This document shows, piece after piece, positions 2,515-64,000 of a stretch of DNA of 64,000 nucleotides (its first letter is position 1; each line of letters starts with the position of its first letter). This DNA is from Candidatus Muproteobacteria bacterium (lineage in GTDB: Bacteria > Pseudomonadota > Gammaproteobacteria > Acidiferrobacterales > Sulfurifustaceae). The DNA lies in NCBI GenBank assembly GCA_027449605.1, contig DAIDLH010000089.1, forward strand, positions 1 through 64,000. Direction: 5' to 3'. The position numbers and the translations under genes are program-made. The notes under the pieces are model-generated. The model did no database searches. It worked only from the letters and a program-made list of their open reading frames with translations, and was not told the DNA's origin.

Positions 2515-2718
2515 CTAGCCGTCGTGCTCGTCCATCCAGGCCATCTGGATCGCCTCGAGGATTTTCTCGCCCGAGCGCTCGGGCTTGTCGTCGAAATCGG
2601 GCAACCCGAGCACCCATTGATGGAGATCGGTAAAACGGACGGACATCGGATTCACGTCCGGATATTTCTCGCTCAAGGCGATGGCCAGCTCGCGGGTATC
2701 GGTCCATTTCAGTCCCAT
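2515..2718 (-). CDS. iscX: IscX, Fe-S cluster assembly accessory protein
   Basis: Small acidic protein of 67 residues that in E. coli binds IscS and iron and modulates cluster assembly. The recognisable IscX pattern runs through the sequence: [19 protein letters not shown] at the start, then [13 protein letters not shown] and a closing [11 protein letters not shown] strong Shine-Dalgarno (AGGAG) sits seven bases before the ATG. It is the last gene of the isc operon, after fdx, with a 123-base gap holding an inverted repeat. Confidence 0.93.
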
Positions 2719-2744
2719 GGTCGGCTCCTTTTTATATGATTATC

Positions 2745-2830
2745 TGCCGCAAAGACGCGAAGAACGCAAAGAAAGGCTCAGGAGAATAAAACCCAAGAAA
2801 TCTTTGCGATCTTTGCGCTCTCTGCGGCAA
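2745..2830. repeat. Imperfect inverted repeat A (GCAAAGA-type) between fdx and iscX
   Basis: Two arms of about 30 bases: the left begins TGCCGCAAAGACGCGAAGAA and the right ends in its near reverse complement (CTTTGCGCTCTCTGCGGCA). They are separated by roughly 25 bases and could form a long hairpin in the isc mRNA. From memory, this motif (GCAAAGACGCAAAGAACGCAAAG) resembles dispersed intergenic palindromes seen in many environmental genomes. The base composition differs from the coding sequence around it. Confidence 0.8.
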
Positions 2831-2841
2831 AAACTCATAGT

Positions 2842-3180
2842 TCAATGCTGTTCGGAAACGAGATTGATCGTGTACTTGGGGATCTCGACCACCAGATCCC
2901 GGTCTCCGACCTTGGCCTGGCAGGAAAGCCGCGATTCCGGCTCCAGCCCCCAGGCCTTGTCGAGCAGGTCTTCTTCCTTTTCCTCGGCCGGTTCGAGGCT
3001 GGCAAAACCCTCGCGCACCACCACGTGACAGGTGGTGCAGGCGCAGGATTTCTCGCACGCGTGCTCGATCGGAATGCCGGCATTGAGCGCCGCGTCACAG
3101 ATGCTGATGCCCGGCTCCACCTCAACGGTCTTGCCCTCGGGGCAGATCTGCGGATGCGGCAGGAAAGTCAGGCGCGTCAT
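2842..3180 (-). CDS. fdx: Isc-type [2Fe-2S] ferredoxin
   Basis: Electron carrier of the Isc machinery, thought to supply electrons for sulfur reduction and cluster formation on IscU. In 112 residues the ligand set of the adrenodoxin-like family is visible: Cys 42, 48 and 51 within [12 protein letters not shown], and Cys 87 in LSCQAK. The extra Cys 46 is also conserved in E. coli Fdx. The ATG overlaps the hscA stop by four bases, so translation is coupled to the chaperone. Length and motif spacing match E. coli Fdx closely. Confidence 0.96.
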
Positions 3181-5072: not shown

Positions 5073-5088
5073 GGCTATCAAAAAAAAT

Positions 5089-5187
5089 TAGACAGGATTC
5101 ACAGGATTAAAAACAAGATTAACAGGATTTCTTATCTATAAAATCTTTAATCCTGTGAATCCTGAAAAATCCTGTTAATCCTGTCTA
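5089..5187. repeat. Imperfect inverted repeat B (ACAGGATT-type) between hscB and hscA
   Basis: The left arm starts TAGACAGGATTCACAGGATT and the right arm ends AATCCTGTTAATCCTGTCTA. Internal units of ACAGGATT repeat in both arms, so the whole stretch could fold into a long AT-rich stem-loop. It lies within 17 bases of the hscA start codon and may explain why no ribosome-binding site is seen there. It is unrelated in sequence to repeats A and C. Confidence 0.8.
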
Positions 5188-5765: not shown

Positions 5766-6089
5766 TCAGACGTTGAAACTTTCGCCGCAGCCGCAGCTGT
5801 CCTTGACGTTGGGATTGTTGAACTTGAAGCCCTCGTTCAGACCCTCGCGGGTGTAGTCGAGTTCGGTGCCGTCGAGATAGACGAGACTCTTCGCGTCGAC
5901 GATGACTTTCGCGCCATGACTTTCGTACACGTGATCATCCGGCTCGATCCTGTCCGCGTACTCGATCACGTAGGCCTTTCCGGAACAGCCGGACGAGCGC
6001 ACGCCGAGACGCAGGCCTTCGCCTTTGCCGCGTTTCTCGATGAACTTGCGCACGCGCTCGGCGGCGGCCTGGGTCATGGTGATTGCCAT
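5766..6089 (-). CDS. iscA: IscA, A-type Fe-S carrier
   Basis: A-type carrier of 107 residues that accepts and hands on iron or Fe-S clusters. The three ligand cysteines are at 35 (SSGCSG), 99 and 101 (SCGCGESF), the same numbers as in E. coli IscA. An upstream in-frame start at 6116 exists. I chose the ATG at 6089 because it fits the family N-terminus (MAIT) and has GGAGAG ten bases upstream. It lies between iscU and hscB in the standard operon order. Confidence 0.95.
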
Positions 6090-6126
6090 AGCTGTCACAC
6101 TCTCCGTACTGTTCAATCCGCCGCCA

Positions 6127-6534
6127 TCAGGCGGCGTCGGCCTTGGACCCCTTGGTCCCGGCCTTGGTCTGGTAATCCGCGATCGCCGCCTTGATGGCGT
6201 CCTCGGCCAGCACCGAACAGTGAATCTTCACCGGCGGCAAGGCCAGCTCCTCGGCGATCTGGGTGTTCTTGATCTTGCCCGCTTCCTCGATGGTCTTGCC
6301 CTTGACCCACTCGGTCAGCAGCGAGCTCGAGGCGATGGCGCTGCCGCAGCCGTAGGTCTTGAACTTGGCGTCCTCGATGACGCCCTGCTCGTTGACCCTG
6401 ATCTGCAACTTCATGACGTCGCCGCAGGCGGGCGCGCCGACCATGCCGGTGCCCACGTTCGGATCGCTTTTGTCCAGCACGCCGACGTTGCGCGGATTTT
6501 CGTAATGGTCCAATACCTTGTCACTGTAAGCCAT
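6127..6534 (-). CDS. iscU: IscU, Fe-S cluster scaffold
   Basis: Scaffold on which [2Fe-2S] clusters are built from IscS-derived sulfur. In 135 residues all expected ligands are present: Cys 37 and Asp 39 (PACGD), Cys 63 (YGCGSA) and Cys 106 (KIHCSV). The HscA-recognition motif LPPVK is at 99-103. Upstream of the ATG there is a purine-rich GGAGAGGG. A C-terminal tail rich in Lys/Ala ([13 protein letters not shown]) is slightly longer than in E. coli. The 110-base gap to iscS contains inverted repeat C. Confidence 0.97.
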
Positions 6535-6565
6535 ATCTTAACCCTCTCCGTATTTATTGGGGTTT

Positions 6566-6640
6566 GAGCAGCAAGTAGCAAGTTTCAAGCAGCAAGAAAA
6601 AATCAAATCCTTGTCGCTTGCTACTTGCCCCTTGCTGCTC
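6566..6640. repeat. Imperfect inverted repeat C (AGCAAGTAGCAAG-type) between iscS and iscU
   Basis: The left arm begins GAGCAGCAAGTAGCAAG and the right arm ends CTTGCTACTTGCCCCTTGCTGCTC in the opposite sense, about 30 bases each with an A-rich loop. Arms share near-perfect ends. It fills most of the iscS-iscU gap, the same gap that is targeted for mRNA cleavage by RyhB in E. coli. Sequence is unrelated to repeats A and B. Confidence 0.8.
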
Positions 6641-6644
6641 CGTT

Positions 6645-7859
6645 TCAATGCGCCGCCCACTGCACCTTGCTGAGGTCGACGCCTTCCTGGTGCATCTCCC
6701 ACAGCGGCGACAGTTCGCGCAGCTTCGCGACTTTTTCCTTCACCAGCGCGGCGGCGTAGTCGACTTCTTCCTGGGTGGTGAAACGCCCGAAGGTGAAACG
6801 GATCGAACTGTGCGCCAGCTCATCGTTGCGCCCGAGCGCCCGCAGCACGTAGGACGGTTCGAGGCTCGCCGAAGTGCAGGCCGAGCCCGAGGATACCGCG
6901 ATGTCCTTGAGCGCCATGATGAGCGATTCGCCCTCGACAAAATTGAAGCTCATGTTCAGATTGTGCGCCACCCGGCGTTCGAGGTCACCATTGACATAAA
7001 CCTCGGGCATGTCCTTGAGGGCATTGAGCATGCGGTCGCGCAGACCGCGTATGCGCTCGATCTCCGCGGCCATTTCCAGCTTGGCGTAACGGAAAGCCTC
7101 GCCCATGCCCACGCACTGATGCGGCGCCAGGGTGCCGGAACGCATGCCGCGCTCGTGGCCGCCGCCGTGCATCTGCGCCTCGAGACGCACCCGCGGCTTG
7201 CGCCGCACGTACAACGCGCCGATGCCCTTGGGGCCGTAGGTCTTGTGCGCCGACAGCGACATCAGGTCCACGTTCATGGCGTTCACGTCGATCGGCACCT
7301 TGCCGGTGCTCTGCGCCGCGTCGCAGTGGAACAGCGCGCCGCGCTCGCGCGCGATCTTGCCGATGGCGGCGATGTCCTGGATCACGCCGATCTCGTTGTT
7401 CACGTGCATCACCGACACCAGGATCGTCTCGGGACGGATGGCGGCCTTGAGCTTTTCCAGATCGAGCAATCCGTTCGGTTCCGGATCGAGATAGGTGACC
7501 TCGAAACCTTCGCGCTCGAGCTGGCGGCAGGTGTCCAGCACCGCCTTGTGTTCGGTCTTGCAGGTGACGATGTGCTTGCCTTTCTTGCCGTAAAAATTGG
7601 CCACGCCCTTGATCGCCAGGTTGTCGGATTCGGTCGCGCCCGAGGTCCAGACGATTTCCTTCGCGTCGGCGCCGATGAGCGCGGCGACGTGGGCGCGCGC
7701 CTCCTCGACCGCCTCCTCGGCGTGCCAGCCGAAAGGATGCGAACGCGAGGCAGGATTGCCGAAGTTTCCGTCCGGCGTCAGGTGCTGACACATTTTTTCC
7801 GCCACGCGCGGATCGACCGGCGTGGTCGCGGAATAGTCCAGATAAATCGGTTTTTTCAT
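6645..7859 (-). CDS. iscS: IscS, cysteine desulfurase
   Basis: PLP enzyme that takes sulfur from L-cysteine and passes the persulfide to IscU and other acceptors. The product is 404 residues, exactly the E. coli length, with the PLP Lys 206 (SLSAHKTYG) and catalytic Cys 328 ([10 protein letters not shown]) at canonical numbers. The reading frame stays open upstream, but the ATG at 7859 gives the family start [14 protein letters not shown]. It follows a second desulfurase gene by 29 bases. Confidence 0.97.
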
Positions 7860-41944: not shown

Positions 41945-42739
41945 TCACAACAACCGATAACCCTTCGCCCTGAACTCGCGTACTTGTTCGCTCGTCGGAA
42001 AACTGAAGTAGGTCGCTTCGGCCGAATCGTTCGGCACGGGCTGGAGTCGGGCCTCGCGAATGCCCTGCACCGCTTCGATCATCAGGCGCGCGCCGAAACG
42101 CTTGGTGCGCCGTATCAGCGCCTCCAGGCTTTCGCCCGGCTCGATGGGGCTCTCGCGCTGCAACAGGATGTCGCCGTCGTCCAGCCTGGCATTGATCCGG
42201 TGCACGGTCGTGCCCACCGCCTTTTCGCCGTGATACATCTGCCAGAAGTTGGGCAGCATGCCGCGATATTTGGGAAGCTTGGCGTTGTGAATGTTGATGC
42301 AGCCATGCTTCGGGACGGCCAGCAGCGGTTCCCGGAAAATCTGCGGCGCGGCCACCGAGATGATCAGGTCGAGCCCCATGGAGCGGAGCGACTCCAGGAA
42401 AGCCGGTTCGTTGACGTTCGCCACCTCCAGCACCGGCACCCGGTAATGCTCGCAGACCTGCCGGATGGAATAGAACCGGCGCGTGCGCCATACGTTTCGC
42501 AGCCGGATCATCAATTTGTAATAGACGTAGCGCAGCCCCATCCGCACGAAGTCGACGGGCCCGTAGAAGCCGTACATCTGGCGCACGAGCCCGGACAGAC
42601 TCTTCTTGCCCATGGTCGGAGCGATCACCACGCCGGCGATCTCGTCCCGGCGAGGGTAATGCGCCAGGAACTCCTCGAAAAACAAGCGGACATAGAACGG
42701 GTCCTCCTGGGTAATGAACAGGATCCTGAATGCCGTCAT
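41945..42739 (-). CDS. Formyltransferase-family protein (possible sugar N-formyltransferase)
   Basis: A 264-residue protein with the formyltetrahydrofolate-dependent formyltransferase fold of Fmt, PurN and ArnA. The catalytic Asn-His-Asp set is visible: NIHNAKLPKYRG (Asn and His) and LDDGDILLQ (Asp). The length suits small sugar N-formyltransferases such as VioF/WlaRD-type enzymes, which modify dTDP-aminosugars. No aminotransferase for such a sugar is in this window. The ATG at 42739 overlaps the upstream glycosyltransferase stop by four bases; the longer open frame is not family-like. Confidence 0.82.
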   Translation of the reverse strand: MTAFRILFITQEDPFYVRLFFEEFLAHYPRRDEIAGVVIAPTMGKKSLSGLVRQMYGFYGPVDFVRMGLRYVYYKLMIRLRNVWRTRRFYSIRQVCEHYRVPVLEVANVNEPAFLESLRSMGLDLIISVAAPQIFREPLLAVPKHGCINIHNAKLPKYRGMLPNFWQMYHGEKAVGTTVHRINARLDDGDILLQRESPIEPGESLEALIRRTKRFGARLMIEAVQGIREARLQPVPNDSAEATYFSFPTSEQVREFRAKGYRLL

Positions 42740-43875
42740 TTCCTCACCGTTTCCCAGGTGACGGCCTTGTGGCCCCGCCAGATCCGGTACATGGCAACCA
42801 CCGCGGCCAGATTGACGGTCACGAAATAGAGCGGAATCGTCAACGGCTTGGCCAGCAGGTTGCGCGGCTCCGCGACATACCCGATCAGCGCCAGCGCGTA
42901 AAACGCCAGTTGCAGCGCCAGCGCCGCGTTGTAGAACGGAACCCCCAGCAGGAACAGATTGGAAACCAGCGCGATCGCCATGAACACGGGGATGAACCAG
43001 CGCAGCACCTTGTGCGAAAGCAGCTGGAACGCCACGAAACCGTGGCGCAACGGATTGAACAGCGTTTTCATGTAAAGCAGTCCGCGCATGCCGCGGGTGA
43101 TGACGCGCACGCGCATGCGGAACTCCTCCTGGCTTTTTTCGGTGGTCTCCTCGTAGGCGATGGCATCGGGCTCGAACACGATGCGGTATCCCTTTTCCAG
43201 GACCTTCAACGGCTCGACCAGATCGCTGATGATGTCCGCCGGCAGCGGCGCATACGCGTCGCGTCGCACCGAGTAGATGCAGCCGCAACATCCGGTGACC
43301 GTCTTGATGTCGGTCTGCATCGTCTTGATCGCATTTTCGTACCTCCAGAACAGGATGCTGCCCAGGCCGATGGCCGCTCCCGTGGGATTGCAGTATTCAT
43401 AGCGCCCGCTCACGGCGCCGACCGAGGGATCGGCGTAATTGCGCACCAGGTTGCGGATCGCCGAACGCTCGTAGCGGGTCGTGGCGTCGGAGAAGATGAC
43501 GATGTCGCCGCTCGCCTGCCTGACGGCCTGGTTCTGCGTCTCCGTCTTGCCGACGCGTCCTTCCACGCGAATCAGCCTCACCCCGCGGTCGGAAAATCCC
43601 TTGACGATCTGATCGGTGCGATCGGTCGATCCGTCGGAAGCCACGATGATTTCCAGCCTGTCCGCCGGATAGTCGAGCGTCAGCACCTGCTCGAGCTTCG
43701 CCGCGATGTTCTTCTCCTCGTTGTAGGCCGTGATCAGGTAAGTGACCCTGGGCTCGATGGGGCTCCGCCGGACGGGATTGTGCACGAGGCGCGACAGCAC
43801 CAGGATCACCAGCGAATATCCGACGTAGGTGAAGGCGATCAATCCGATCGCGAACCAGAACGCTATTTCAGCCAC
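42736..43875 (-). CDS. Membrane family 2 glycosyltransferase
   Basis: A 379-residue GT2 enzyme with an N-terminal membrane anchor (FWFAIGLIAFTYVGYSLVIL), a catalytic domain (TYLITAYNEEKNIAAKLEQV, ASDGSTDRT, GKTETQNQAV, VIFSDATT) and three to four C-terminal membrane segments (about 280-365). This layout resembles processive or repeat-unit polysaccharide synthases; the usual QxxRW is not clear here. Its stop overlaps the formyltransferase start by four bases, so the two products are probably made together. Confidence 0.86.
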   Translation of the reverse strand: MAEIAFWFAIGLIAFTYVGYSLVILVLSRLVHNPVRRSPIEPRVTYLITAYNEEKNIAAKLEQVLTLDYPADRLEIIVASDGSTDRTDQIVKGFSDRGVRLIRVEGRVGKTETQNQAVRQASGDIVIFSDATTRYERSAIRNLVRNYADPSVGAVSGRYEYCNPTGAAIGLGSILFWRYENAIKTMQTDIKTVTGCCGCIYSVRRDAYAPLPADIISDLVEPLKVLEKGYRIVFEPDAIAYEETTEKSQEEFRMRVRVITRGMRGLLYMKTLFNPLRHGFVAFQLLSHKVLRWFIPVFMAIALVSNLFLLGVPFYNAALALQLAFYALALIGYVAEPRNLLAKPLTIPLYFVTVNLAAVVAMYRIWRGHKAVTWETVRK

Positions 43876-49603: not shown

Positions 49604-51493
49604 TCAGCCGGGCTGATAGGCCTCGTGCCACAGCATGAACATCAGCAGCGCCCAGATGCGGCTGTGATGATTCTCTCGGCGGCTCATGTGTTCCTCGAGC
49701 ATGCGTTCGACCGCCGGCCAGCGGAACAAGCCCATGCCCTCGATCCGTTCCTTCGACAGAACCCTCCTGATCAGCGGGTTCAGCTCGTTGCGGAACCATA
49801 CCGTCAGCGGAACCGTGAAACCCTGCTTGCGCCGATACAGGATTTCCTTCGGCAGGGTTCCGGCAAACGCGCGCTTCAATAAATATTTCTTGTCGAAGCC
49901 CCGGATCTTGAGTTCCGGCGGCACCGTGGCCATGAACTCCATCAGCTCGTGGTCCACGAACGGGGCGCGCGCCTCGATCGAATGGGCCATGCTCATGCGG
50001 TCGGTGAGCGGGAGCAGATCCCCGGGCAGATACATCATGACGTCCGTGTACAGCGCGCGGTTGAGCACGTCGTCGATGCCGTCGCGATTGAAGAATCGGC
50101 CGAACATCTCCCGGGACGCGTCGAGACGGACCGATTGAGCCAGCCCGTCGCTGTAAAGCTCGCGGCGCCATCCGGCATCGAACGCCGACACATAGCGTTG
50201 ATAAGCCTGATCCGCGGGCAAGGCGCCGGTTCGCACAAAGCGCTTGACCCGCTCGATGAGGCGGCCGCCCTTCCTGGAATCGGGCAGCCGATTGACCACC
50301 CGTTCCACCACGCCCTCGCGCAACCAGCGCGGCACGTCCCGGTAATGCTTCTGCCAACGGATGCCGAGATGCCGCTCGTAGCCCGCCGCGACCTCGTCGC
50401 CTCCCAGGCCCGACAACACCACCTTCACGTGCTTGCGCGTTTCGCGAAAAACGTAGTAATTCGCAATGGCCGAGGAATCGGCGAACGGCTGGTCGAAGGC
50501 GCGCACGATTTCCGGGAGGATTTCCACGATGTGCGGCTCGACCACGAATTCGCGGTGCTGCGTACCGAACCGGTCGGCCACCATTTTGGCGTAGCGGCGC
50601 TCGTCGTAATACGCTCCTTCGTCCCCGTAGCCGATGCAAAATGTTCTGACCGGTTCCGACGTGAATTCGCTCATCGCCGCCACCACCGCGCTGGAGTCGA
50701 TGCCGCCGCTCAGCAACGCGCCGAGCGGCACATCGCTTACCAGCCGGCTGCGCACCGAATGGCGGAACCGCTCGGCGAAGGCATCCACGAAATGCTGCGC
50801 GTCGTTTTTACGATCGATTCGGAATTCGAGATCCCAATAGCGGCGGATCCGCGGTCCGTCGCCGTCCATGACCAGCAGGTGCGCGGCCGGCAGTTCGCGT
50901 ACGTCGCGAAAAATCGTGGCCGGCGCCGGAACATAGAGATAGGTCAGGTAGGCGTCCAGGGCGCCGTGGTCGATGTCCTTCGACACCACGTCGCTCTGCA
51001 GCAGACATTTGATCTCCGACCCGAAGATGAACTTCCCGTTCCTGAACGCATAGTAGATCTGCTTCTCGCCCGCGCGATCGCGCGCGATCAGCAGCTTCTT
51101 GCGACGGTCGTCCCACAGGGCAAAACCGAACATGCCGTTGAGATGCTGCACGCAGTCTTCGCCGTATTCTTCGTAGAGATGCGCGATGGTCTCGGTGTCC
51201 GACTTGGTATAAAAACGGTGCCCCCTGGCTTCCAGCCGGTCGCGTAATTCGCGATAGTTGTAGATCTCGCCGTTCAACACCACCCAGACGCTCTTGTCCT
51301 CGTTATGAATCGGCTGATGTCCGGAGGCGAGGTCGATGATGCTCAGGCGGCGCATGCCGATCCCCACCGGGCCGGCCACGTAACTGCCCTCATCGTCCGG
51401 TCCACGATGTTGCATCACGTCGCACATGCGCTTCAGCTCGGCGCTGTCGACGCTGCCTGAGGACTGGTACAAGATTCCGGTAATTCCGCACAT
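49604..51493 (-). CDS. Asparagine synthase (glutamine-hydrolysing)-like amidotransferase
   Basis: A 629-residue two-domain protein. The N-terminal class II glutaminase has the catalytic Cys 2 (MCGITGILY), RRLSIIDLASGHQPI and GEIYNYRELRD. The C-terminal ATP-pyrophosphatase has LLSGGIDSSAVVAAM. The length and layout fit both AsnB/AsnO and the amidotransferases of exosortase-A loci. In O-antigen clusters such proteins can amidate uronic acids, which fits its position among glycosyltransferases better than free asparagine synthesis; this is inference. A second, divergent copy is at 62440-64000. Confidence 0.88.
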   Translation of the reverse strand: MCGITGILYQSSGSVDSAELKRMCDVMQHRGPDDEGSYVAGPVGIGMRRLSIIDLASGHQPIHNEDKSVWVVLNGEIYNYRELRDRLEARGHRFYTKSDTETIAHLYEEYGEDCVQHLNGMFGFALWDDRRKKLLIARDRAGEKQIYYAFRNGKFIFGSEIKCLLQSDVVSKDIDHGALDAYLTYLYVPAPATIFRDVRELPAAHLLVMDGDGPRIRRYWDLEFRIDRKNDAQHFVDAFAERFRHSVRSRLVSDVPLGALLSGGIDSSAVVAAMSEFTSEPVRTFCIGYGDEGAYYDERRYAKMVADRFGTQHREFVVEPHIVEILPEIVRAFDQPFADSSAIANYYVFRETRKHVKVVLSGLGGDEVAAGYERHLGIRWQKHYRDVPRWLREGVVERVVNRLPDSRKGGRLIERVKRFVRTGALPADQAYQRYVSAFDAGWRRELYSDGLAQSVRLDASREMFGRFFNRDGIDDVLNRALYTDVMMYLPGDLLPLTDRMSMAHSIEARAPFVDHELMEFMATVPPELKIRGFDKKYLLKRAFAGTLPKEILYRRKQGFTVPLTVWFRNELNPLIRRVLSKERIEGMGLFRWPAVERMLEEHMSRRENHHSRIWALLMFMLWHEAYQPG

Positions 51494-53656: not shown

Positions 53657-54042
53657 AATTCAACGGCTCACTGGTTCTTTTCGGGATTGTCGACGGTTAT
53701 CGTGGGTACGACCGTTTAATAACGCGCCATTGATTGTTCGTACTGACACTGGAAAACTGCATTACGAATTATATTACAACTTGACCTGTCCTCCCCCACC
53801 GCCTCGGGCCTGCTGTCGCGGATTCCGGGTTCAGCGCGCCTTACCGTTAATCATTTGGTTCACTGCGTCCATCTGATAAACGGCCGTTCATCCACCAAAT
53901 CAACCATTTACGTTTGATCGGCGATTTTGATTTCGCTATGTTCAGCTTGCCAAGGCGAGCAAACAAACGCCGGCTCTCTGCGACGGATTCAAGCGCTTTC
54001 AAAAGCGAACCTGTACATGGAATGGGAAGGGGTACACAAGAT
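53657..54042. promoter_or_regulatory. Divergent intergenic region with TATAAT on the minus strand
   Basis: AT-rich stretch (53735-53785) between the deacetylase operon and the beta-helix lipoprotein gene. A perfect TATAAT on minus at 53773-53768 lacks a good -35. On plus no clear promoter is seen, only the purine-rich GGGAAGGGG ten bases before the lipoprotein ATG. A sigma54-like -24/-12 pair was looked for and not found. Confidence 0.4.
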
Positions 54043-56019
54043 ATGACGACTTTCAAGGCTGTGGGACGCGCGATATTTTTTCTGCCCATCATTATCAGTT
54101 TTTTCTTGATGACAGCCTGCGGCGGTGGAGGAGACACGGGCTCAACCACTACCACCAGCACCAATTCCAGCACCGGCACAAATACCGGCACGGGCACCGG
54201 TACCGGGACCGGCACGAGCGGTACGTATACCTTGAGCATTATGTCTTCCGGCTCCGGCACCGTCACCTCCGCTCCGGGCGGCATCAACTGCGGCAACACT
54301 TGCAGCGCCGGTTACACGAGCGGCACGAGCGTGACCCTTACCGCTACCGCCGCTGCCGGCTATACCTTCTCCGGCTGGAGCGGAGCATGCACGGGAACAG
54401 CGTCAACCTGCTCGGTATCGATGAGTGTGAACCGCAGTGTCGGCGCCACCTTCGCGATGACAGGCGCGGCGGCGGGTGCGCCGGTGATCGCCTTCTCCGA
54501 CCTCGACAGCGGTCCCAATACGGGAGGCCAGAACAACAACGGCGTGTTCGTTACCATCTGGGGCAACAACTTCGGCGCCACGCGCGGCAGCGGTTTCGTC
54601 ACCGTCGGCGGCGGTCAGGTCAACAACTACCCGCTGTGGTCGAACAACAAGATCATCTTCCAGCTGGGCGCGGCTGTGGCCAGCGGTAACGTCAACATCG
54701 TCGTCACCGCCGCCAACGCACAATCATCCAACGGCCTGCCCTTCACCGTTCGGGCGGGCAGCATTTATTTTGTAACTCCCAACGGCACCGGCAATGGCGA
54801 TTTCGCGACGCCCATGTCACCGACCGCCGCGTACGCCGCCATGGGTCCCGGAAAGACCTTTTATTTCCGCGCCGGCACCTATTCGGGAGGCTACGGCGAT
54901 GGCGGGGTCTACGGCGATCGAAATTATTCTCTCGGGCAGGCCAAAGGCGGCACCGCCGGCAACCCGCTGGCTCTCGTCGGATATCCCAACGAAGTAGCGC
55001 AGTTCGTCTCGCCGCTGGCGACCGACCGGGAAAACATTTCGTTCGCGGACAACAGCGGCCAACCGGCCAGCTACGTCACGGTCGCCAACCTGACCCTCGT
55101 CGGCGGCGCGGCCTGCATCAGCGACGGCGGGTGGTATCTCACGCCGAAGTCGGGCGGCACCAACAACCGCATCGTCGGCAACATCATGTCGGCGCGCTAC
55201 GGCGGCAGCAACACGATGACCGGCATGCTCCTCATCCAGAACGATCACTGGCGCGTGTACGGGAACGAATTCAAGGATACGGGCACCGGCGCTCCGATCA
55301 ACAACAACCACGGCATCTACAACCAGGCCGCGGCGAGCGATACCGAGATCGCCTGGAACTATTTCCACGACTTGCGCATGGGACACGTGATCCAGGTGCA
55401 CACCGATCCCTACTACGTGTACACCAACGTGCGTATCCACGACAACGTGCTCACCCAGGGCGCCAACGGCGATTCCCGCGGCATCAACGTGGGCAACGCG
55501 CTTGCCGGCACTTACGGCTCGATTTACAACAATATCCTTTACAACCTGGGCCAGAATTTCAGCGGCATCATGCTGTATTCCGGGGACTGGAAGGTCTACA
55601 ACAACACGCTGTACAACGTGTATGCGACCGGCGGCATCATCTCGCTCAGCAACCTTCCGCGGCAACTGGGCGGAGCGCCGGCCAACTGGAGCCCGCCGAC
55701 CGCGGACATCAGGAACAACATCATCTACTCCGACGGCCAGTCGGTCTACATCGGCGCCGAAAGCGGCGCTTCCCTGTTGCAGACAACCCTGTCGAACAAC
55801 ATTTACTACAACTTCGGAGCCGCGCCAGTCCAGGACATCACGGCAATCACCGGCAATCCGTTGTTTGTAAACGCCGCGGCCGGGAACTTCCATCTGCAGA
55901 GTGGCAGTCCCGCCATCAACACCGGCAATACCGGCGTTGGCACGGTGGTAAGCATGGATCACGACGGGGTCAACCGCCCGCAAGGCGGCGGTTATGACGT
56001 GGGGGCGTACGAGCAGTAG
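54043..56019 (+). CDS. Exported lipoprotein: InlB-like repeat, TIG domain and parallel beta-helix
   Basis: A 658-residue surface protein of unknown role. A lipobox (MTAC, Cys 26) ends the signal, followed by a Thr/Gly linker (about 34-60, TGTGTGTGTG), a bacterial InlB-type repeat (SGSGTVTSAPGG ... GYTFSGWSGAC), a TIG/IPT-like domain (FSDLDSGPNTGGQNNNGVFV) and a long right-handed beta-helix domain (about 240-650) with recurring N-N and G-N turns. It shares conserved blocks with the next gene: MGHVIQVHTD, DSRGINVG and SGDWKVYNNTLYN. It ends DVGAYEQ. It could bind or cleave the polysaccharide. I chose the ATG at 54043 because the lipobox follows at the right distance. Confidence 0.8.
   Translation: MTTFKAVGRAIFFLPIIISFFLMTACGGGGDTGSTTTTSTNSSTGTNTGTGTGTGTGTSGTYTLSIMSSGSGTVTSAPGGINCGNTCSAGYTSGTSVTLTATAAAGYTFSGWSGACTGTASTCSVSMSVNRSVGATFAMTGAAAGAPVIAFSDLDSGPNTGGQNNNGVFVTIWGNNFGATRGSGFVTVGGGQVNNYPLWSNNKIIFQLGAAVASGNVNIVVTAANAQSSNGLPFTVRAGSIYFVTPNGTGNGDFATPMSPTAAYAAMGPGKTFYFRAGTYSGGYGDGGVYGDRNYSLGQAKGGTAGNPLALVGYPNEVAQFVSPLATDRENISFADNSGQPASYVTVANLTLVGGAACISDGGWYLTPKSGGTNNRIVGNIMSARYGGSNTMTGMLLIQNDHWRVYGNEFKDTGTGAPINNNHGIYNQAAASDTEIAWNYFHDLRMGHVIQVHTDPYYVYTNVRIHDNVLTQGANGDSRGINVGNALAGTYGSIYNNILYNLGQNFSGIMLYSGDWKVYNNTLYNVYATGGIISLSNLPRQLGGAPANWSPPTADIRNNIIYSDGQSVYIGAESGASLLQTTLSNNIYYNFGAAPVQDITAITGNPLFVNAAAGNFHLQSGSPAINTGNTGVGTVVSMDHDGVNRPQGGGYDVGAYEQ
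54168..54222 (+). repeat. Short tandem ACCGGCACGGGC-type repeat encoding the Thr-Gly linker
   Basis: Degenerate six-base units (ACCGGC, ACGGGC, ACCGGT, ACCGGG) run through this stretch and encode TGTGTGTGTG. Simple in-frame repeats of this kind can change length by slippage without breaking the frame. Confidence 0.6.
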
Positions 56020-56090
56020 TATTTCTGCTTGCCGTTGTAATCAAGCCACTTACGACCGGACTCCTCGCTTTTCTCCGGCGCATCGACAAA

Positions 56091-56123
56091 ACCCGCGGTC
56101 TTCCGGACCGCGGGTCTTTTTTT
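56091..56123 (+). terminator. Rho-independent terminator after the beta-helix lipoprotein gene
   Basis: ACCCGCGGTC and GACCGCGGGT form a ten-base stem with a five-base loop (TTCCG), followed by CTTTTTTT. It lies 72 bases after the stop codon and separates this gene from the next, which is therefore transcribed on its own or by read-through. Confidence 0.88.
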
Positions 56124-56253
56124 GCCACGATACAAAATTTCATGACGCCCCGAAGATGGGCGTCAGGAGCGCCGCCATGAAAAACATGCGCTGACAGCTT
56201 CGACAATGCGTTGTTATACTGCGACATCGCCCCAAACCAACAAGCAAAACACC

Positions 56254-57864
56254 ATGACCCTTTTCTCCCCGACACGCCTGTTACGCCTCGTTTGTCTTGT
56301 GCTCGCGCTGCTGGCCAGCCCCGGGCTCGCATGGTCGGCCATGCCGCCGGTGATTTTTTATTCCGACCTGGACAGCGGACCCAACAGCGGCGGCCAGGAT
56401 GACAATGGTGTATATGTCACGGTGCGGGGAAAGAACTTCGGTGCGACGCCGGGTACGGTCACCATAGGCGGTGGGCGCGCCAAGAACTATTTAACATGGA
56501 ATGACACAAAGCTCATCTTCCAGTTGGGTCCCGAAGCCAAAACCGGCGACATCGTCGTCACGACGGCGGACAATCAGCCGTCCAACTCCATTCCGTTCAC
56601 CGTCAGGCCCGGCAGAATCTTCTTCGTTTCCGCCAAGCACTCGAGTCGCGGATCCGGAACCCATGATAACCCGTGGCGCTCGCCGGGATCCTTCTACGGC
56701 AAGATGCGGCCCGGCGACACGGTTTATATCCGGGAAGGCGTTTATTCCGAGCAATACTCGGAGACCAATTGGGGTTCATATAACTTCACGCTCGGCCGCG
56801 CGGCCGGCGGCGCTCCCGACAAACCCATCGCCTTCGTCGGCTATCCCGGCGAGACCGCGGGTTTCAAGGCGCCGTCCCGCTCTTACGGCAATTTCACCTT
56901 CGCCGACAGCACCGAGACCCGGGCCGATTACATGACCATCGCCAACCTCACGTTTCAGGGCGCCGATTTCTGCATCGGCGGAGGCGGCTTCTGGCAGAGG
57001 GAAAAAGGCGGCGCCGCGCATATCCGGATCGTCGGCAATCGGCTGTCGGCAAAATACGACGGCAACACCATGACGGGGCTGATTTCGGTGATGGGCGATT
57101 CATGGCGGATTTTCGGCAATGAATTCGCCGACACCGGCACCACGCCGCCGATCAACAACAACCATGCGCTTTATATCATGACCGGCGCCAGCGACATCGA
57201 CGTCGGCTGGAACCGGTTCAGCAACCTGCGCATGGGGCACGTGATCCAGGTGCACACGGACATCCCCTATCGCTACCAGGATATCCGCATTCACGACAAC
57301 GTCATCACCGCCGCGAGCGTCAACGACTCCCGCGGCATCAACGTCGGGCGCGCGCTTCCGGGGACCTTCGGGGCGATTTACAACAACGTGCTGTACAACA
57401 TCGGCCAGAATTTCAGCGCCATCGCCATCTATTCCGGTGATTGGAAGGTGTACAACAACACGCTTTACAACATCCGGGCGACCGACGGCATGATCTGGAT
57501 AAGCGGCCAGGCGGGCCAGACGCCGACCGCCAGGATCGTCAACAACATACTCTACTCGGACGGCCAATCGCCCTATGTCACCACTCTGCATGGAGCGAAG
57601 TCCGGTCAATTGACGCAGTCGAACAACCTCTACCTCGGTTATTCCAGGCCGGACGCGCCCGAGACAAAGAATGGAACGAAGGCGAATCTGCTGTTTCAGG
57701 ATCCGGCGGCGGGCGACTTCCACCTGCGACCCGGCAGTCCGGCGATCGATGAAGGGTCGGAAACGGTTGCGCCGGTCGTCACCCGCGATCACGATGGAAC
57801 GCCGCGCCCCCAAGGCAAGCGTTTTGACGTCGGCGCATTCGAGGCCGTGGCGCCTGCGCGTTAA
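56254..57864 (+). CDS. Secreted TIG plus parallel beta-helix protein, paralogue of 54043-56019
   Basis: A 536-residue exported protein. An ordinary signal peptide (LLRLVCLVLALLASPGLAWSA) replaces the lipobox and Thr-Gly linker of its neighbour. It keeps the TIG-like part (FYSDLDSGPNSGGQDDNGVY, FGATPGTVTIGGGR) and the beta-helix with RMGHVIQVHTD, NDSRGINVG and SGDWKVYNNTLYN, all conserved with the lipoprotein. The end FDVGAFEAVAPAR is similar too. The InlB-type repeat is missing. So it is a soluble or cleaved form next to an anchored form. The start at 56254 is the ATG before the signal; a frame opens at 56206. It ends 19 bases from the convergent NadE-like gene. Confidence 0.8.
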   Translation: MTLFSPTRLLRLVCLVLALLASPGLAWSAMPPVIFYSDLDSGPNSGGQDDNGVYVTVRGKNFGATPGTVTIGGGRAKNYLTWNDTKLIFQLGPEAKTGDIVVTTADNQPSNSIPFTVRPGRIFFVSAKHSSRGSGTHDNPWRSPGSFYGKMRPGDTVYIREGVYSEQYSETNWGSYNFTLGRAAGGAPDKPIAFVGYPGETAGFKAPSRSYGNFTFADSTETRADYMTIANLTFQGADFCIGGGGFWQREKGGAAHIRIVGNRLSAKYDGNTMTGLISVMGDSWRIFGNEFADTGTTPPINNNHALYIMTGASDIDVGWNRFSNLRMGHVIQVHTDIPYRYQDIRIHDNVITAASVNDSRGINVGRALPGTFGAIYNNVLYNIGQNFSAIAIYSGDWKVYNNTLYNIRATDGMIWISGQAGQTPTARIVNNILYSDGQSPYVTTLHGAKSGQLTQSNNLYLGYSRPDAPETKNGTKANLLFQDPAAGDFHLRPGSPAIDEGSETVAPVVTRDHDGTPRPQGKRFDVGAFEAVAPAR

Positions 57865-57883: not shown

Positions 57884-58900
57884 TCAGCCGCCCAGCTCCG
57901 ACACGGCCTCCACCAGAACCGGCTTGGCGTGCAAAAACGCCGTGGTGCGCCGCTTGGTTTCTATGTCGCGATAAATAAAAGCGGCCTGTTCGCTCGACAC
58001 GCCGAGACAATTCGCGAGTTCTTCCGCGGACCGGGCGTGATTATGCGCCCAAAGCGACAGGTCCATCTTTTCGTACGGCAGGGCAAAATAAAATTCGTCC
58101 TGGCCTTGCGGCAAGCTGTAGGTATCCGTCGTGGGTTTCGATTTGCATATCGCATCCGGCAATCCCAGATGGCGCGCCATGGCATACACCTGGGTCTTGT
58201 ACAGGTGGGCGATCGGCTTCACGTCGGCCGATCCGTCCCCGTTTTTGACGAAAAAACCCTGGTCGTACTCGAGCCGGTTCGGCGTGCCGACCACGGAATA
58301 GTGCAGCCGGTCGGCGTGGAAATACTCGATCGTCTTGCGTATGCGCTGCTTGTAATTGGTCGCGGCGACGATCTGGAGATACTGCTTGTGGTCCAGTCGC
58401 TTTTCGTGGCGGGCGCCGTCCGGCGCCTGGACAACGAGCTTGAAGTAGTTGAACCGGCCATCGACGCCGCCGCCGATGACGATCTTGTTTTTCCAGTCTT
58501 TCTGATAGTCCGGGAACACGGTTTTGATGGCTTCGTCGCGCCAGCGGTAACAACCGATCGCCTCCAGCGTCGGGGCGATGTCCTGTTTGAGGTATTCGAT
58601 TTTCAGGTGCTCGGCGAGCAGCCGTCCCAGATCCTCGCTGGCCGAGGAGGAGTCTTTTTCCGGAAGCAGCAGTCCGAAAACCCTGCCCGGGCCCAATGCC
58701 CGCACCGAAAGCGCCGCGCACACGGAGCTGTCTATACCGCCGGAAATCGCCACGACCACGCCACGCCGATGCTGCTCTTTGACGACGATCTCGACCAGAC
58801 GCCGGCAGACATGGTCGGTCACGGCCACTGGATCGATATCCAAAACACCCGATGTCAATTTAGCTGCTGCCACACGCTTCTCCCGCTCGTTATCGAGCAT
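57884..58900 (-). CDS. NAD-synthase-like ATP pyrophosphatase (amidotransferase domain absent)
   Basis: A 338-residue N-type ATP-PPase of the NadE family, lacking the nitrilase-like glutaminase domain. The P-loop is VVVAISGGIDSSVCAALS; the second signature is VVGTPNRLEYDQGFFVKNGDGS followed by HLYKTQVYAMARHLGLP, and KSKPTTDTYSLPQGQDEFYF completes it. In known NadE, ammonia reacts with an adenylated substrate. Here, at the end of an acyl-ligase/ACP operon, it may amidate a different carboxylate; that is inference. Start ATG at 58900, 3 bases after the ACP stop. Confidence 0.8.
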   Translation of the reverse strand: MLDNEREKRVAAAKLTSGVLDIDPVAVTDHVCRRLVEIVVKEQHRRGVVVAISGGIDSSVCAALSVRALGPGRVFGLLLPEKDSSSASEDLGRLLAEHLKIEYLKQDIAPTLEAIGCYRWRDEAIKTVFPDYQKDWKNKIVIGGGVDGRFNYFKLVVQAPDGARHEKRLDHKQYLQIVAATNYKQRIRKTIEYFHADRLHYSVVGTPNRLEYDQGFFVKNGDGSADVKPIAHLYKTQVYAMARHLGLPDAICKSKPTTDTYSLPQGQDEFYFALPYEKMDLSLWAHNHARSAEELANCLGVSSEQAAFIYRDIETKRRTTAFLHAKPVLVEAVSELGG

Positions 58901-58903
58901 CAA

Positions 58904-59161
58904 TTATCCCGCCGACGCCAGTTTCCCGCGCACATACTTCTCGATCTTTTCCAGGCTGTCGAGATTGTCGGGAACCATCTCGGCGTCCTCGACGCGGAAC
59001 TTGTACGTCTCCTGTATGAAGGACACGAGTTCCAACACACCGGTGGAGTCGATGATGCCTTTTTCGATGAACGAAACGCTGTCCGTGATTTTCTCCGGTT
59101 CGCCGCCCATCAAAAAGTTATCGAGGATGTATTGTTTGACCTGTATTTTAATGTCACTCAT
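58904..59161 (-). CDS. Acyl carrier protein
   Basis: An 85-residue carrier protein. The phosphopantetheine site is the Ser in GIIDSTGVLELVSFIQ, a D-S-x pattern as in ACPs and peptidyl carriers, and the sequence is acidic and helical. The start is the ATG at 59161, with GGGAG six bases upstream. It sits between two AMP-forming ligases and the NadE-like gene in one co-oriented group. The carrier may hold an activated acyl or hydroxy-acyl group. Confidence 0.9.
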   Translation of the reverse strand: MSDIKIQVKQYILDNFLMGGEPEKITDSVSFIEKGIIDSTGVLELVSFIQETYKFRVEDAEMVPDNLDSLEKIEKYVRGKLASAG

Positions 59162-59238
59162 GCATGCTCCCACCTGTCAATTTCTGTTGTTTCTCTTTCA
59201 ATATTTCCGGCAACGAATCGATTATAGACGGTTTTCCG

Positions 59239-60765
59239 TCAGTTCTTTGCCGCCAGGAGAAACCGCCTCACCTTCCCCGAGGCGGTGCGCGGCAGGCTGG
59301 CATTGAACTCGATATGCCTGGGCATCTTGTAGGCCGGCAACCGGCGCAGGCAGTGCGCCTTGATGTCCATCTCGGAAAGATCGGCCCCCGGCCCGGGAAC
59401 GACGACGGCCTTGATCGTCTGGCCCAGAATCTCGTCATCCACGCCGACCACCGCCACCTCGCTGACGCCCGCGATTTCCGCGATGGCTTCCTCGATGTCG
59501 GCCGGGTTGATGCGGTGACCGCCGCTCTTGATGATGTCGCTCTCCCGGCCCTGGATAAAAATATATCCGTCCTCGTCCATGTAGGCGATATCGCCGGTCT
59601 TGAGCCAGCCGTTCCTGATCACCTCGCCCGTCGCCGCGGGATCGTTCCAGTAGCCGGCCATGATATTCGGCCCGGCAGCATGGATTTCGCCGACGGTTCC
59701 CCGCGGCACCGGGTTGCCCCATTCGTCGCGGATCTCCAGCCGCACGTTCGGGATCGCCATCCCTGCGGAGCCGAGTTTTTGTTCGAGTTTTTCGGGCGGC
59801 AAATAGGCCAGTCGCGCGGTCGCTTCGGTCTGTCCGTACATGACGAAAAATCGTACGTGCGGCGCCTCCGCCTTCAATTTTTTGATGTGCGTCGGCGTCA
59901 TCGCGCCCCCTGCCTGGGTCATATACCGGAGGCGGCGCAGATCGTAGTTATTAAGCTGGACACGACTCAGGATAAGCGCGTACGTGGAAGGCACGCCGGA
60001 AAATCCCGTAATGCGCTCGGATTGCATCCTGGCGATCACGTTATGCACGTAAACCAGGCTGTTTTCCAATACCAGCGCGCCGCCGACCGCGAGATGCGTG
60101 TGCAGAATCGAAGCGCCGTAAGAATAGTAAAAGGGCAGCACGTTCAGGCAGCGGTCGTCTGACGCAAGCCCGAGATAGGAAAGAATCGACTCGACATTGC
60201 TCGCGAGGTTGCCGTGGCTGAGCGTCACTCCCTTCGGCCGCCCCGTGGTGCCCGACGTATAAATGATCGCCGCCAACTGGTCGGGGTCGGGGGCGCTGAA
60301 TGGAACCTCGCGGCCATCCACGGCAGCCATGACGGCGTCCCAACGGCTGGCGCCCTTGATCATGGATTCGGCGCCGCCCACGCAGATCAACTGCAATTTC
60401 GGATCGACGGCGTTCATCACCTCGCTAAGTTCCGGATGCCGGACATCGGCGATGAGCCAGCGGGCCTCGCAGTGTCTCAGCCAGTTGACCAGGTCTCTGG
60501 CTTTCGCCGCGGTATTCAGCCCCACGGCGATCCCGCCTCCCAGCAGCGTGCCGTAGTAGGCCGCGATGTACTCGGGTGAATTCTCCAGAAGGATGGCGAC
60601 ACGGTCTTCGCGCCGGAGTCCCCGGGTTTTCATGAACTCGCCCAGGGCACAAACGTCGTGCCACAGCTGGCCGTAGGTCACTCTTCTGTCGCGATGAACA
60701 ACCGCCTCGGCGTCGGAATGCCGTTCGACGCTGCGTCGCAGATTATCGATCAGGGAATGAGACAT
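59239..60765 (-). CDS. AMP-forming acyl ligase (ANL superfamily)
   Basis: A 508-residue adenylating enzyme. The P-loop-like AIIYTSGTTGRPKGVTLSHGN is near residue 165, with GQTEATARLAYLPP and the hinge DGYIFIQGRESDIIKSGGHR. The C-terminal catalytic Lys region is RTASGKVRRF. It may activate a carboxylic acid and load it on the adjacent ACP (78 bases downstream). Substrate unknown. Confidence 0.88.
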   Translation of the reverse strand: MSHSLIDNLRRSVERHSDAEAVVHRDRRVTYGQLWHDVCALGEFMKTRGLRREDRVAILLENSPEYIAAYYGTLLGGGIAVGLNTAAKARDLVNWLRHCEARWLIADVRHPELSEVMNAVDPKLQLICVGGAESMIKGASRWDAVMAAVDGREVPFSAPDPDQLAAIIYTSGTTGRPKGVTLSHGNLASNVESILSYLGLASDDRCLNVLPFYYSYGASILHTHLAVGGALVLENSLVYVHNVIARMQSERITGFSGVPSTYALILSRVQLNNYDLRRLRYMTQAGGAMTPTHIKKLKAEAPHVRFFVMYGQTEATARLAYLPPEKLEQKLGSAGMAIPNVRLEIRDEWGNPVPRGTVGEIHAAGPNIMAGYWNDPAATGEVIRNGWLKTGDIAYMDEDGYIFIQGRESDIIKSGGHRINPADIEEAIAEIAGVSEVAVVGVDDEILGQTIKAVVVPGPGADLSEMDIKAHCLRRLPAYKMPRHIEFNASLPRTASGKVRRFLLAAKN

Positions 60766-60821
60766 GAGTCAGCGATTCCCGGACCGGCCGCGAGGCAACG
60801 AAGAAACGAGAAGCGCGCTGA

Positions 60822-62438
60822 CTAACATAGAACGCCGGTGGCCGCCCATATGGAAAACAGATCGGTGATCTCGAAACACGTTTCAAGCGCGACGAAATCG
60901 AAAGCCACGTGGCACAAACTGCTCTTGCTGATTTTTCCGGTATTGGTTTTCGGCAGGGCCTGGATGAACACCACGTGTTTCGGCGCCATGAAATTTTCGA
61001 GGTGCGCGAGACAATGCCGGATGACGTCCTTCTCGGTGTAGTGATATCCCGGTTTCTGCACCACGTACGCCTTGACCGCCTGCCCCAGCACCGGATCCGG
61101 CACGCCGACCACGGCGCACTCCTGTACTCCCTCCAGGCTGTCGATCACGTTTTCCACTTCCCGCGGGCTCACCTTCTCGCCGCGGCTCTTGATGATGTCG
61201 TCCATGCGGCCGACGAAATACAAATAACCCTCCTCGTCGGTACGAAAAATATCCCCGGAGTACAGGATATTCTCACCGGGATAGGGACCCGGTTTCAGGC
61301 ATTTGGCGGTTTCTTCGGGTTTCCCCCAATATCCCCGCATGACGTGGCTGCCGCGGATCACCAGCTGGCCGGTCTGCCCGTGCGGCAGGCGTTTGCCTTC
61401 CTCGTCGATCAGATACACCTCCTGATTGGGCATGCCGCGTCCCACGCTCAAGGGCCGGATATCGAGCTGCTCCGGAGGCAGGTAGGTGACGCGCTTGCAT
61501 TCCGTCAGGCCATACATGGAAAACAGCCGTGCCTGGGGAAACAGGCGACGGATGTCGCGAATCTGTTTTTCCGTCAGGGCGGCGGCGGTGTTGGTGATCA
61601 GGCGCAGCGACCGGAGGTCATAGCGGGAAAGATCCAGATTCGACAAAAGCGCGAACATCGTCGGCACACCCGGAAACACGGTCACCTTTTCCCTCGCCAT
61701 CAGCTCCAGGACCTGCACCGGGAAAACGAAAGACCGCTCCAAAACGACGCAGGCGCCCAGCATGAAGCCCATCAGGATCTGATACAGGCCGTAGTCGAAC
61801 GCCATCGGCATCGCGCACAGGATGATGTCATCCTCGCGAAGTTCGAGATAGGAGGAAACCGAATCCTGGGCCGTGAGCATGTTTCGATGGCTCAACATGA
61901 TGCCCTTGGGTTCGCCGGTCGACCCGGAAGTGTAGATGATGGCCGCCAGGTCCTGGTCGATCGTCTTCGGATGATCGGCCGGGTTTCCGTCGCGAGCCAG
62001 CGCCTCGTCCCAGGAAATACCGATGGGAGATTCCCCGGTCAGGATGCAGGTCTGAATGCTCGATCCCGACCCCAGAACGGGCTCAAAGGTCTCCCGCAGA
62101 TGGGCGTGGCTGATGAGAGCGCTGGGCTGGGTCTCCTTGACGATATACGCGAACTTATCCTGCTTGGTGAGCGGATTGATCGGAATGAAAACCGCCCCGA
62201 CCGCGAGCGTGGCATAGATTGCCGTTACCGCTTCGGGCGAGTTGTCGAGGAACAGCGCGACCCGGTCGCCACGCTGTACCCCGCGATGCTGCAGGAACGA
62301 GGCAAGCCGCCGGACATCGCGCGCGAGCTGTTCGTAGGTGCAGCGTCCTTCCTTGCAGACGAGCGCGACTCGATCCGGCGAACGCCGCACGGTATGTTCG
62401 AACGTATGATGCAGCAAGCTTGGACGCGACCGAAGCAT
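60822..62438 (-). CDS. AMP-forming acyl ligase (exosortase-A-locus-like)
   Basis: A 538-residue ANL enzyme. AIIYTSGSTGEPKGIMLSHRN, YGLTECKRVTYLPP, the hinge GRMDDIIKSRGEKVSPREVE and LPKTNTGKISK are visible. The N-terminus (LLHHTFEHTVRRSPDRVALV) and IPINPLTKQDKFAYIV recall acyl ligases recorded near exosortase A. It differs from the ligase at 59239, so two acids or two steps are likely. Start ATG at 62438, directly after the upstream stop codon. Confidence 0.86.
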   Translation of the reverse strand: MLRSRPSLLHHTFEHTVRRSPDRVALVCKEGRCTYEQLARDVRRLASFLQHRGVQRGDRVALFLDNSPEAVTAIYATLAVGAVFIPINPLTKQDKFAYIVKETQPSALISHAHLRETFEPVLGSGSSIQTCILTGESPIGISWDEALARDGNPADHPKTIDQDLAAIIYTSGSTGEPKGIMLSHRNMLTAQDSVSSYLELREDDIILCAMPMAFDYGLYQILMGFMLGACVVLERSFVFPVQVLELMAREKVTVFPGVPTMFALLSNLDLSRYDLRSLRLITNTAAALTEKQIRDIRRLFPQARLFSMYGLTECKRVTYLPPEQLDIRPLSVGRGMPNQEVYLIDEEGKRLPHGQTGQLVIRGSHVMRGYWGKPEETAKCLKPGPYPGENILYSGDIFRTDEEGYLYFVGRMDDIIKSRGEKVSPREVENVIDSLEGVQECAVVGVPDPVLGQAVKAYVVQKPGYHYTEKDVIRHCLAHLENFMAPKHVVFIQALPKTNTGKISKSSLCHVAFDFVALETCFEITDLFSIWAATGVLC

Positions 62439-62439
62439 G

Positions 62440-64000
62440 TCAAACCGCCTTTGCCAGCTGCGAGAACCTCGTGTCGGCGAAGGACGTCGCCACCCGGGAG
62501 GAACGGATGAACATATCATCGACGAGCATGGCGGAGAGAATGCCGACGAAGGCCATGTTGTCGCCGAACCCGATGGCGCGGCCGGCGCGGCATTTTTCCA
62601 CGAGCTTGGCCACGGATTTAGGGTCGAAATAGCCCGACGCGCGCAGACGTGACTCGCTCAACAGCTCCGCCACGTAGGGAAGCGGCACGCCCTTATGAAA
62701 GAAGCTCTGGCTGTCGGGAGCGCGGTACGGCTGCTTGGTGCGGGTGCGGATGCTCTCGGGCAGCAGTCCTTTCATGGTTCGCTTGAGCAGGTATTTTTCG
62801 GTGAGCCCCATGAGCTTGTAGCGCGGCGGCAAGCGGTTCGCGAACTCGATCAGGCGATGGTCGAGAAACGGAAACCGTCCCTCGATGGAATTGGCCATGG
62901 CCACGCGATCGCCCTGGGAACTGAGCAAATAGCCGGACATGAGCGTATGCGCCTCGATATATTGATCGCGGCCGAGGGGCAGCCAACGCGCGATTCCGGC
63001 CGGCAAGGTGCGTTCGATGGCGGCGTACGGATCGAAGCCGCTCAGGGCCGCGCGCAGTTCGGGACTGAAGAACTGCCAGATGCGCCGCGTCGTGGTCCAG
63101 CGCGGGATGTGGCCGAAGAACGGCTTGTCCTTGTGCTCCATGCCCTCGCTGAAGAATTTCTGGGTGAAAACCCGGCCCGCGGCCGGCGAATGCTTGAGGT
63201 ACGGATAGAGACGCTCGAATATCCGCGGACGGAATTCGGATTGCGGCACGCGCGCGCAAAAGCGCCTGATTTTGGCTTCCTTGAAGATGTCGTAACCGCC
63301 GAATACCTCGTCCGCGCCCTCGCCCGTCAGCACCACCTTATACCCTTCCGCGCGCACGCGCGCCGAAAGCAGCATCAGGGGAGTGGGCGCGGTGCGCACG
63401 ACCGGCGTCTCGGCGTGCCAGACGGTGCGCGGGAAAGCCGCGCCGATGTCGGACGCCGTGCAACGAACGTCGGAATGACGGGTGCCGAGATACCCGACCA
63501 GATCCTGCTGATGCCGGCTCTCGTCGAACTCGGCATCCTCGAACGTCACCGAGAAGGTGCGCAATGGCGTGTCGGTGAAGTTCTTGATGATGGTGGTCAC
63601 GATGGAGGAATCGAGCCCTCCGCTCAGGTACGCTCCCACCGGCACGTCGGCGCGCAGCTGCAGTCGCACCGCGTCGATCAGCAACTCGCGCAACTCTTCG
63701 GCATACGATTCGCCGCTGCGGGAATCCGGCGGTATCGCGTCCGGAAAGGTCCAATCCCAGTAGCAGCGCACCCGGATCTGCCCGCCTTCCACCGTCATCA
63801 GATGGCCCGGCGGCAGCGCCTCGATGTTCTCGTACACGGTCGCGGGAGCCAGAGGCGACCAATAAGTGAAAATTTCTCCCAGGGTAACCGGATTGAGCCG
63901 GCGCGTGACCTCGGGCAGCACGAACAGCGCCTTGACCTCGGAGGCAAACAGCAGGCGGCCGTGCGTCTGCGTGTAAAACAGCGGCCGGATGCCGGTGCGG
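62440..64000 (-). CDS. Asparagine-synthase-like amidotransferase (partial, N-terminus outside window)
   Basis: The frame stays open to position 64000 and reads RTGIRPLFYTQTHGR then LLFASEVKALF at its visible start, which is the end of the class II glutaminase domain. The synthase domain has YLSGGLDSSIVTTII and VVLTGEGADEVFGG. A GTG inside this frame would give a shorter protein, but the glutaminase remnant shows that the true start lies beyond the window. It is a distant paralogue of 49604-51493 and first of the acyl-ligase/ACP/NadE-like gene series. Confidence 0.88.
   Translation of the reverse strand, partial: RTGIRPLFYTQTHGRLLFASEVKALFVLPEVTRRLNPVTLGEIFTYWSPLAPATVYENIEALPPGHLMTVEGGQIRVRCYWDWTFPDAIPPDSRSGESYAEELRELLIDAVRLQLRADVPVGAYLSGGLDSSIVTTIIKNFTDTPLRTFSVTFEDAEFDESRHQQDLVGYLGTRHSDVRCTASDIGAAFPRTVWHAETPVVRTAPTPLMLLSARVRAEGYKVVLTGEGADEVFGGYDIFKEAKIRRFCARVPQSEFRPRIFERLYPYLKHSPAAGRVFTQKFFSEGMEHKDKPFFGHIPRWTTTRRIWQFFSPELRAALSGFDPYAAIERTLPAGIARWLPLGRDQYIEAHTLMSGYLLSSQGDRVAMANSIEGRFPFLDHRLIEFANRLPPRYKLMGLTEKYLLKRTMKGLLPESIRTRTKQPYRAPDSQSFFHKGVPLPYVAELLSESRLRASGYFDPKSVAKLVEKCRAGRAIGFGDNMAFVGILSAMLVDDMFIRSSRVATSFADTRFSQLAKAV

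Follow-up and report, generated by a model that had tools for sequence, protein, structure and literature searches.

An NAD-synthase-like protein in a conserved cassette with asparagine-synthase-like, acyl ligase and carrier genes beside an exopolysaccharide locus

What is a gene annotated as an NAD synthase doing beside an acyl carrier gene, in one group with adenylating ligases and a glutamine amidotransferase? The question is raised by a contig of Candidatus Muproteobacteria bacterium (DAIDLH010000089.1), of which we analysed the first 64,000 nucleotides (hereafter the window). ORF calls place five minus-strand genes at 57884-64000, encoding an AsnB-like protein, two ANL ligases, a carrier and a NadE-like protein (Table 1). 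Their positions and family matches confirmed what a preliminary description of this DNA had stated, namely five co-oriented and tightly spaced genes of these families. The gap between the amidotransferase and ligase 1 is 1 base, that between the two ligases 56 bases, and that from ligase 2 to the carrier ATG 77 bases, while the carrier stop is separated from the NadE-like ATG by 3 bases (TAA TTG ATG).

Table 1. Genes of the cassette at the end of the window
Feature	Position	Strand	Remarks
NadE-like N-type ATP pyrophosphatase, no glutaminase domain, NF002048/PRK00876	57884..58900	-	338 aa from ATG; TTG at 58903 gives 339 aa
Carrier protein, GIIDST phosphopantetheine site	58904..59161	-	GTG start at 59173 possible
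ANL ligase 2, subtype B	59239..60765	-	A4 motif YYSYGASILHTH, A5 YGQTEATAR
ANL ligase 1, subtype A-D	60822..62438	-	A4 AFDYGLYQ, A5 YGLTECKRV; longer ORF start 62519
AsnB-like glutamine amidotransferase	62440..64000	-	cut by window end; complete 659 aa to contig base 64419

Surroundings of the cassette

The contig extends past the window to position 73797, and the inspection beyond 64 kb proposed in the preliminary description both completed the AsnB-like gene, which runs 419 bases over the window end, and revealed exopolysaccharide (EPS) chain-length, export and priming genes upstream of it. On the same strand come a TIGR03016-like outer-membrane protein, scoring below the TIGR03016 cut-off, and then a TIGR03007 chain-length determinant, a TIGR03027 export protein and a TIGR03013 glycosyltransferase, all three over cut-off. 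Judged by these predicted genes, the region beyond the window is an XrtA-type (exosortase-A) EPS locus next to the cassette. No XrtA exosortase over the curated cut-off was found in the genome; its one exosortase, on another contig, scores 166.9 against 208 bits.

Within the window, two tandem paralogs (53914-57864, plus strand), 51% identical over 498 aa, are convergent to the cassette. Near its N-terminus the first carries a Thr-Gly repeat, and the second combines a TIG domain with a choice-of-anchor-Q region. A second AsnB-like protein is encoded at 49604-51493 (minus strand); at 654 bits against the TIGR03108 cut-off of 817, it is nearer to TIGR03108 than the cassette member, and the EPS region therefore holds two different amidotransferases. 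Beside glycosyltransferase and polysaccharide deacetylase genes, a 448-aa ORF (41945-43291, minus strand) contains a formyltransferase domain at about residues 275-436, which may modify a sugar of the same polysaccharide in another way.

Four genes found together across phyla

Similarity to the NadE-like protein was the sole criterion by which we chose loci, and the other genes were looked for afterwards. An ANL ligase lies within 1.5 kb in 91 of 97 NadE-like loci, as against none of 30 canonical NadE loci, which served as a control and whose 1.5 kb flanks also lack the carrier and the AsnB-like gene. Same-strand partners were counted in the 80 loci whose flanks extend for 4.5 kb or more (1.5 kb for the canonical control). 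Within 4.5 kb, the ligase was found at 77 of these loci, the carrier at 76 and the AsnB-like gene at 68, and 66 loci have the full set of three. With the canonical loci as control, we rejected a chance neighbourhood, and the counts uphold the earlier proposal that the genes form one cassette; the co-occurrence of the NadE-like family with the carrier, which the preliminary description had suggested as a check, is borne out. At 12 of the 80 loci a same-strand AsnB-like gene is lacking nearby, which counts against the function that we propose below.

The family is present in 15 of 398 sampled genomes of the phylum, host included (about 4%). A ligase or AsnB-like gene lies within 1.5 kb in all 14 others, and all four genes were found in each of the six that were inspected more widely. 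Cassettes occur in Proteobacteria, Chloroflexota, Gemmatimonadota and Krumholzibacteriota, with the gene orders AsnB-ACP-ANL-NadE, AsnB-ANL-ACP-NadE and NadE-AsnB-ANL-ACP; in another genome of the host's genus (G004), AsnB-NadE and ACP-ANL are on two contigs, with all four genes present. That the order is shuffled and the set constant makes a good case for a common pathway. The window conforms to this four-gene type, its AsnB-like, ANL ligase, carrier and NF002048 NadE-like genes being co-oriented within a few kb. A NadE-like gene beside an ACP is the rule, and what is unusual here is the presence of both ligase subtypes in one cassette. Our literature search found no description of a combined NAD synthase, asparagine synthase and ACP cassette.

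One of these operons, on the pSymB megaplasmid of Sinorhizobium meliloti (L140), has the same four families in tight spacing and in AsnB-ACP-ANL-NadE order. PMC7232532, citing Ramos-Vega 2009, reports that the pSymB ligase gene SMb20650, transcribed together with that of the carrier SMb20651, led to an acylated form of this carrier in E. coli, and that SMb20650 does not complement fadD. Going by gene content and replicon rather than locus tags, the L140 operon is very probably the SMb20650/SMb20651 operon. Its ligase would then acylate its carrier. The S. meliloti operon also has one ligase and no EPS genes around it, in contrast to the two ligases and EPS locus of the window.

We propose, with moderate confidence, that the genes constitute a conserved four-function cassette that builds a carrier-bound carboxamide, with the NadE-like protein as a recruited amide synthetase and not an NAD synthase. 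The acid activation, carrier loading and amide chemistry suggested in the preliminary description are retained as the best reading. The ANL ligase would adenylate a carboxylic or amino acid and attach it through a thioester bond to the carrier's phosphopantetheine, the AsnB-like enzyme would hydrolyse glutamine, and the NadE-like ATP pyrophosphatase would adenylate and aminate a carboxylate, giving a unit with one or more carboxamides that a lineage-specific transferase may pass on. We infer the order of these steps, and which enzyme uses carrier-bound material. In this genome, the acceptor would most likely be the exosortase-A exopolysaccharide of the surrounding genes. The genes downstream of the cassette vary by lineage (GNAT, SGNH, hexapeptide, KASIII-like and FemAB families, and thioesterase domains in alphaproteobacteria), which suggests a common carrier-bound unit and different acceptors, and these accessory genes fit transfer of such a unit.

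Alternatively, the cassette could make a small secreted metabolite, a lipid or an osmolyte, its EPS neighbourhood here being incidental. We regard this as unlikely, although it has some evidence in its favour: stand-alone four-gene units are found on the S. meliloti megaplasmid and a Nitratireductor plasmid, the stand-alone cassette of Thiodiazotropha lies beside unrelated oxidoreductase genes, and thioesterase domains adjoin the alphaproteobacterial copies. In the host's taxonomic order, however, the cassette occupies a constant position after wza, wzc and the tyrosine kinase, outer-membrane and ATPase genes. There it is embedded, across many genera, on the same strand and at the same position in the XrtA EPS operon, and is followed by glycosyltransferase, sugar O-acyltransferase-like and FemAB genes. 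The earlier remark that a NadE-like gene is not usual in exosortase-A loci thus holds in general, but not in this order, where it is a regular member. Likewise, the proposed decoration of the exopolysaccharide fits this genome, but the stand-alone occurrences indicate that it is not what defines the cassette.

A possible pointer to an amino-acid substrate comes from a deltaproteobacterial cassette (L082), which has an alanine racemase gene (5829-6998) 18 bases downstream from its NadE-like gene. In an alphaproteobacterial cassette (L202), an NRPS-like protein with AMP-binding and thioesterase domains (2359-5115) is encoded directly upstream of the NadE-like gene.

The NadE-like protein and its partners

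The NadE-like protein scores 480.7 bits in the family search against the NF002048 cut-off of 313, over positions 6-327 of the 330 in the profile. Its SGGxDS P-loop is complete, and in the alignment the ATP/Mg residues are kept at E. coli NadE S48-S53, T160, E165, D176, K189 and K261-R262. The predicted structure (pLDDT 86) has the NAD synthase fold, with 2e18 as best match (TM 0.84 by target). It therefore has the fold and the ATP/Mg residues of the NH3-dependent NadE of E. coli, B. subtilis and P. horikoshii (2e18). It differs from canonical NadE in having only about 25% identity to it, in its cassette context, in being an extra copy beside a canonical NadE, and in the longer stretch before the conserved Asn183, predicted as three strands in this family and containing the invariant residues P131, W137, K140 and Y175. 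In a control search, NF002048 was also over cut-off in Methanosarcina acetivorans. Two candidate traits were set aside. A replaced nicotinate-stacking Phe in the family was dropped, the alignment of the nicotinate pocket being ambiguous, and an apparent fusion to other domains in G226 is a 1581-residue open frame only, the genes there being separate.

The NadE-like gene is a paralog, since a 594-residue open frame on another contig of the host genome encodes a canonical glutamine-dependent NAD synthase, distinct from the cassette protein. All 24 relatives that are at least 90% complete have canonical NadE, as does every well-assembled cassette-bearing genome tested; the sole exception was G004 (82% complete), in which we found none. 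The NadE-like protein as the only NAD synthase of the genome, part of the case that the preliminary description had named as fatal to the cassette idea, was therefore rejected. The protein could still be an additional, ammonia-dependent NAD synthase that supplements the supply of NAD, the neighbours forming a separate acyl-carrier pathway. This is in keeping with the NCBIfam subfamily name, NAD(+) synthase, and with the fold and ATP-site residues, but we consider it quite improbable, because the NadE-like gene is almost never found away from the ligase, carrier and AsnB-like genes, canonical NadE accompanies it in the complete genomes tested, and the family-specific stretch has its invariant residues. 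The presence of the same four genes together across many phyla indicates that the database label is probably wrong, and that the name of NF002048 is probably a misannotation for the cassette members.

The sequence of the carrier is closest, among solved ones, to the stand-alone peptidyl carrier protein 2my5 (4e-8), with weak ACP matches that include the OlsHI and AmcB carrier models. Ligase 1 has TIGR03098 as its best family but scores 491 bits against a cut-off of 592, and ligase 2 scores 375 bits against the same cut-off. The closest solved protein to ligase 1 is the LgrA adenylation domain (NRPS), and to ligase 2 the feruloyl/fatty-acyl-CoA synthetases. Cassette ligases are of two subtypes, A (A4 F[D/S/G/N]YGL, A5 TECKR-like) and B (A4 FYYSYGNS, A5 TEATAR). 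On the tree of the NadE-like proteins, the ligase subtype switches about nine times, so that different acids may be loaded, and the amide may arise on another molecule. The window cassette has one ligase of each subtype, and the same pair is present at 92% identity in a second species of the genus, so it is no assembly error; the two-ligase form is a rare variant of the cassette, common to both species. An amino-acid specificity of ligase 1 read from its A4 Asp was kept as a lead only, close homologues having Ser, Gly or Asn there.

The AsnB-like protein has intact motifs (N-terminal Cys in MCGI, HRGPD, NGEIFN, SGGLDSS and GEGADE) and scores 512 bits against the TIGR01536 cut-off of 267, but 455 against the 817 of TIGR03108. 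In the TIGR03108 group, the AsnB-like enzymes WbpS, WbqG and PGN_1234 make the uronamide of a cell-surface sugar (PMC7468200), which supports amide chemistry for the cassette member, although they act with the Wbp pathway and without a carrier, ligase or NadE-like gene.

Exosortase-A (XrtA/PEP-CTERM) EPS loci contain a ligase (TIGR03098), an amidotransferase (TIGR03108), a FemAB protein (TIGR03019) and hydrolases (TIGR03100/03101). With them the window has in common the flanking EPS export and chain-length genes, and its ligase and amidotransferase are divergent members of these families. It differs from them in the added NadE-like enzyme and in a ligase and amidotransferase that fall under the family cut-offs. 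The founding description of exosortase-A (PMC1569441) mentions neither NAD synthase nor ligase nor acyl carrier. An ordinary exosortase-A module of ligase, ACP and amidotransferase with the NadE-like gene as an accidental neighbour, to which the TIGR03098-like ligase 1 and TIGR03108-like amidotransferase could be ascribed, is very improbable indeed, since both proteins stay under the curated cut-offs and loci picked by the NadE-like protein alone still bring the other three genes, also outside exosortase loci.

A methyltransferase lead and the meaning of the cassette

At many cassettes we found a subfamily of PrmC/HemK-like methyltransferases that separates from housekeeping PrmC. Of 29 cassettes with an FDYGL ligase, 18 have its gene next to the NadE-like gene, as against none of 59 others, and three alphaproteobacterial loci added later agree with this association. 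It comprises only two to four phylogenetically independent pairs, too few for more than a lead. Cassettes adjoined by the methyltransferase span Proteobacteria, Chloroflexota, Gemmatimonadota and Krumholzibacteriota (L064, L067, L071, L076, L080, L081, L102, L104, L107, L110, L111, L122, L127, L129, L130, L131, L135 and L202-L204). G036 has none beside its cassette, and a related gene is present at another place in its genome (L201). In the window genome, no methyltransferase of the cassette type was among those found, and none is in the window's cassette. PrmC and PrmB methylate the amide nitrogen of glutamine side chains, which hints at methylation of the amide that the cassette would form. 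More tentatively than for the cassette itself, we suggest that the whole NF002048/PRK00876 family might act as amide synthetases on carrier-bound acids with an AsnB-like partner, and that in some lineages the PrmC-like methyltransferase might N-methylate the amide.

If the proposed carboxamide function is correct, NF002048/PRK00876 represents a carrier-dependent use of the NAD-synthase fold. What annotation pipelines call an essential NAD synthase appears to be a pathway enzyme. It occurs in several phyla besides that of the host, in which about 4% of the sampled genomes have it, and metabolic models in which an NF002048 member counts as NAD synthase would be in error. By their linkage, the genes define a compact four-enzyme module, likely for an amide-bearing building block of cell-surface polysaccharides and other products, and this module would offer a route into the chemistry of exosortase-A polysaccharides.
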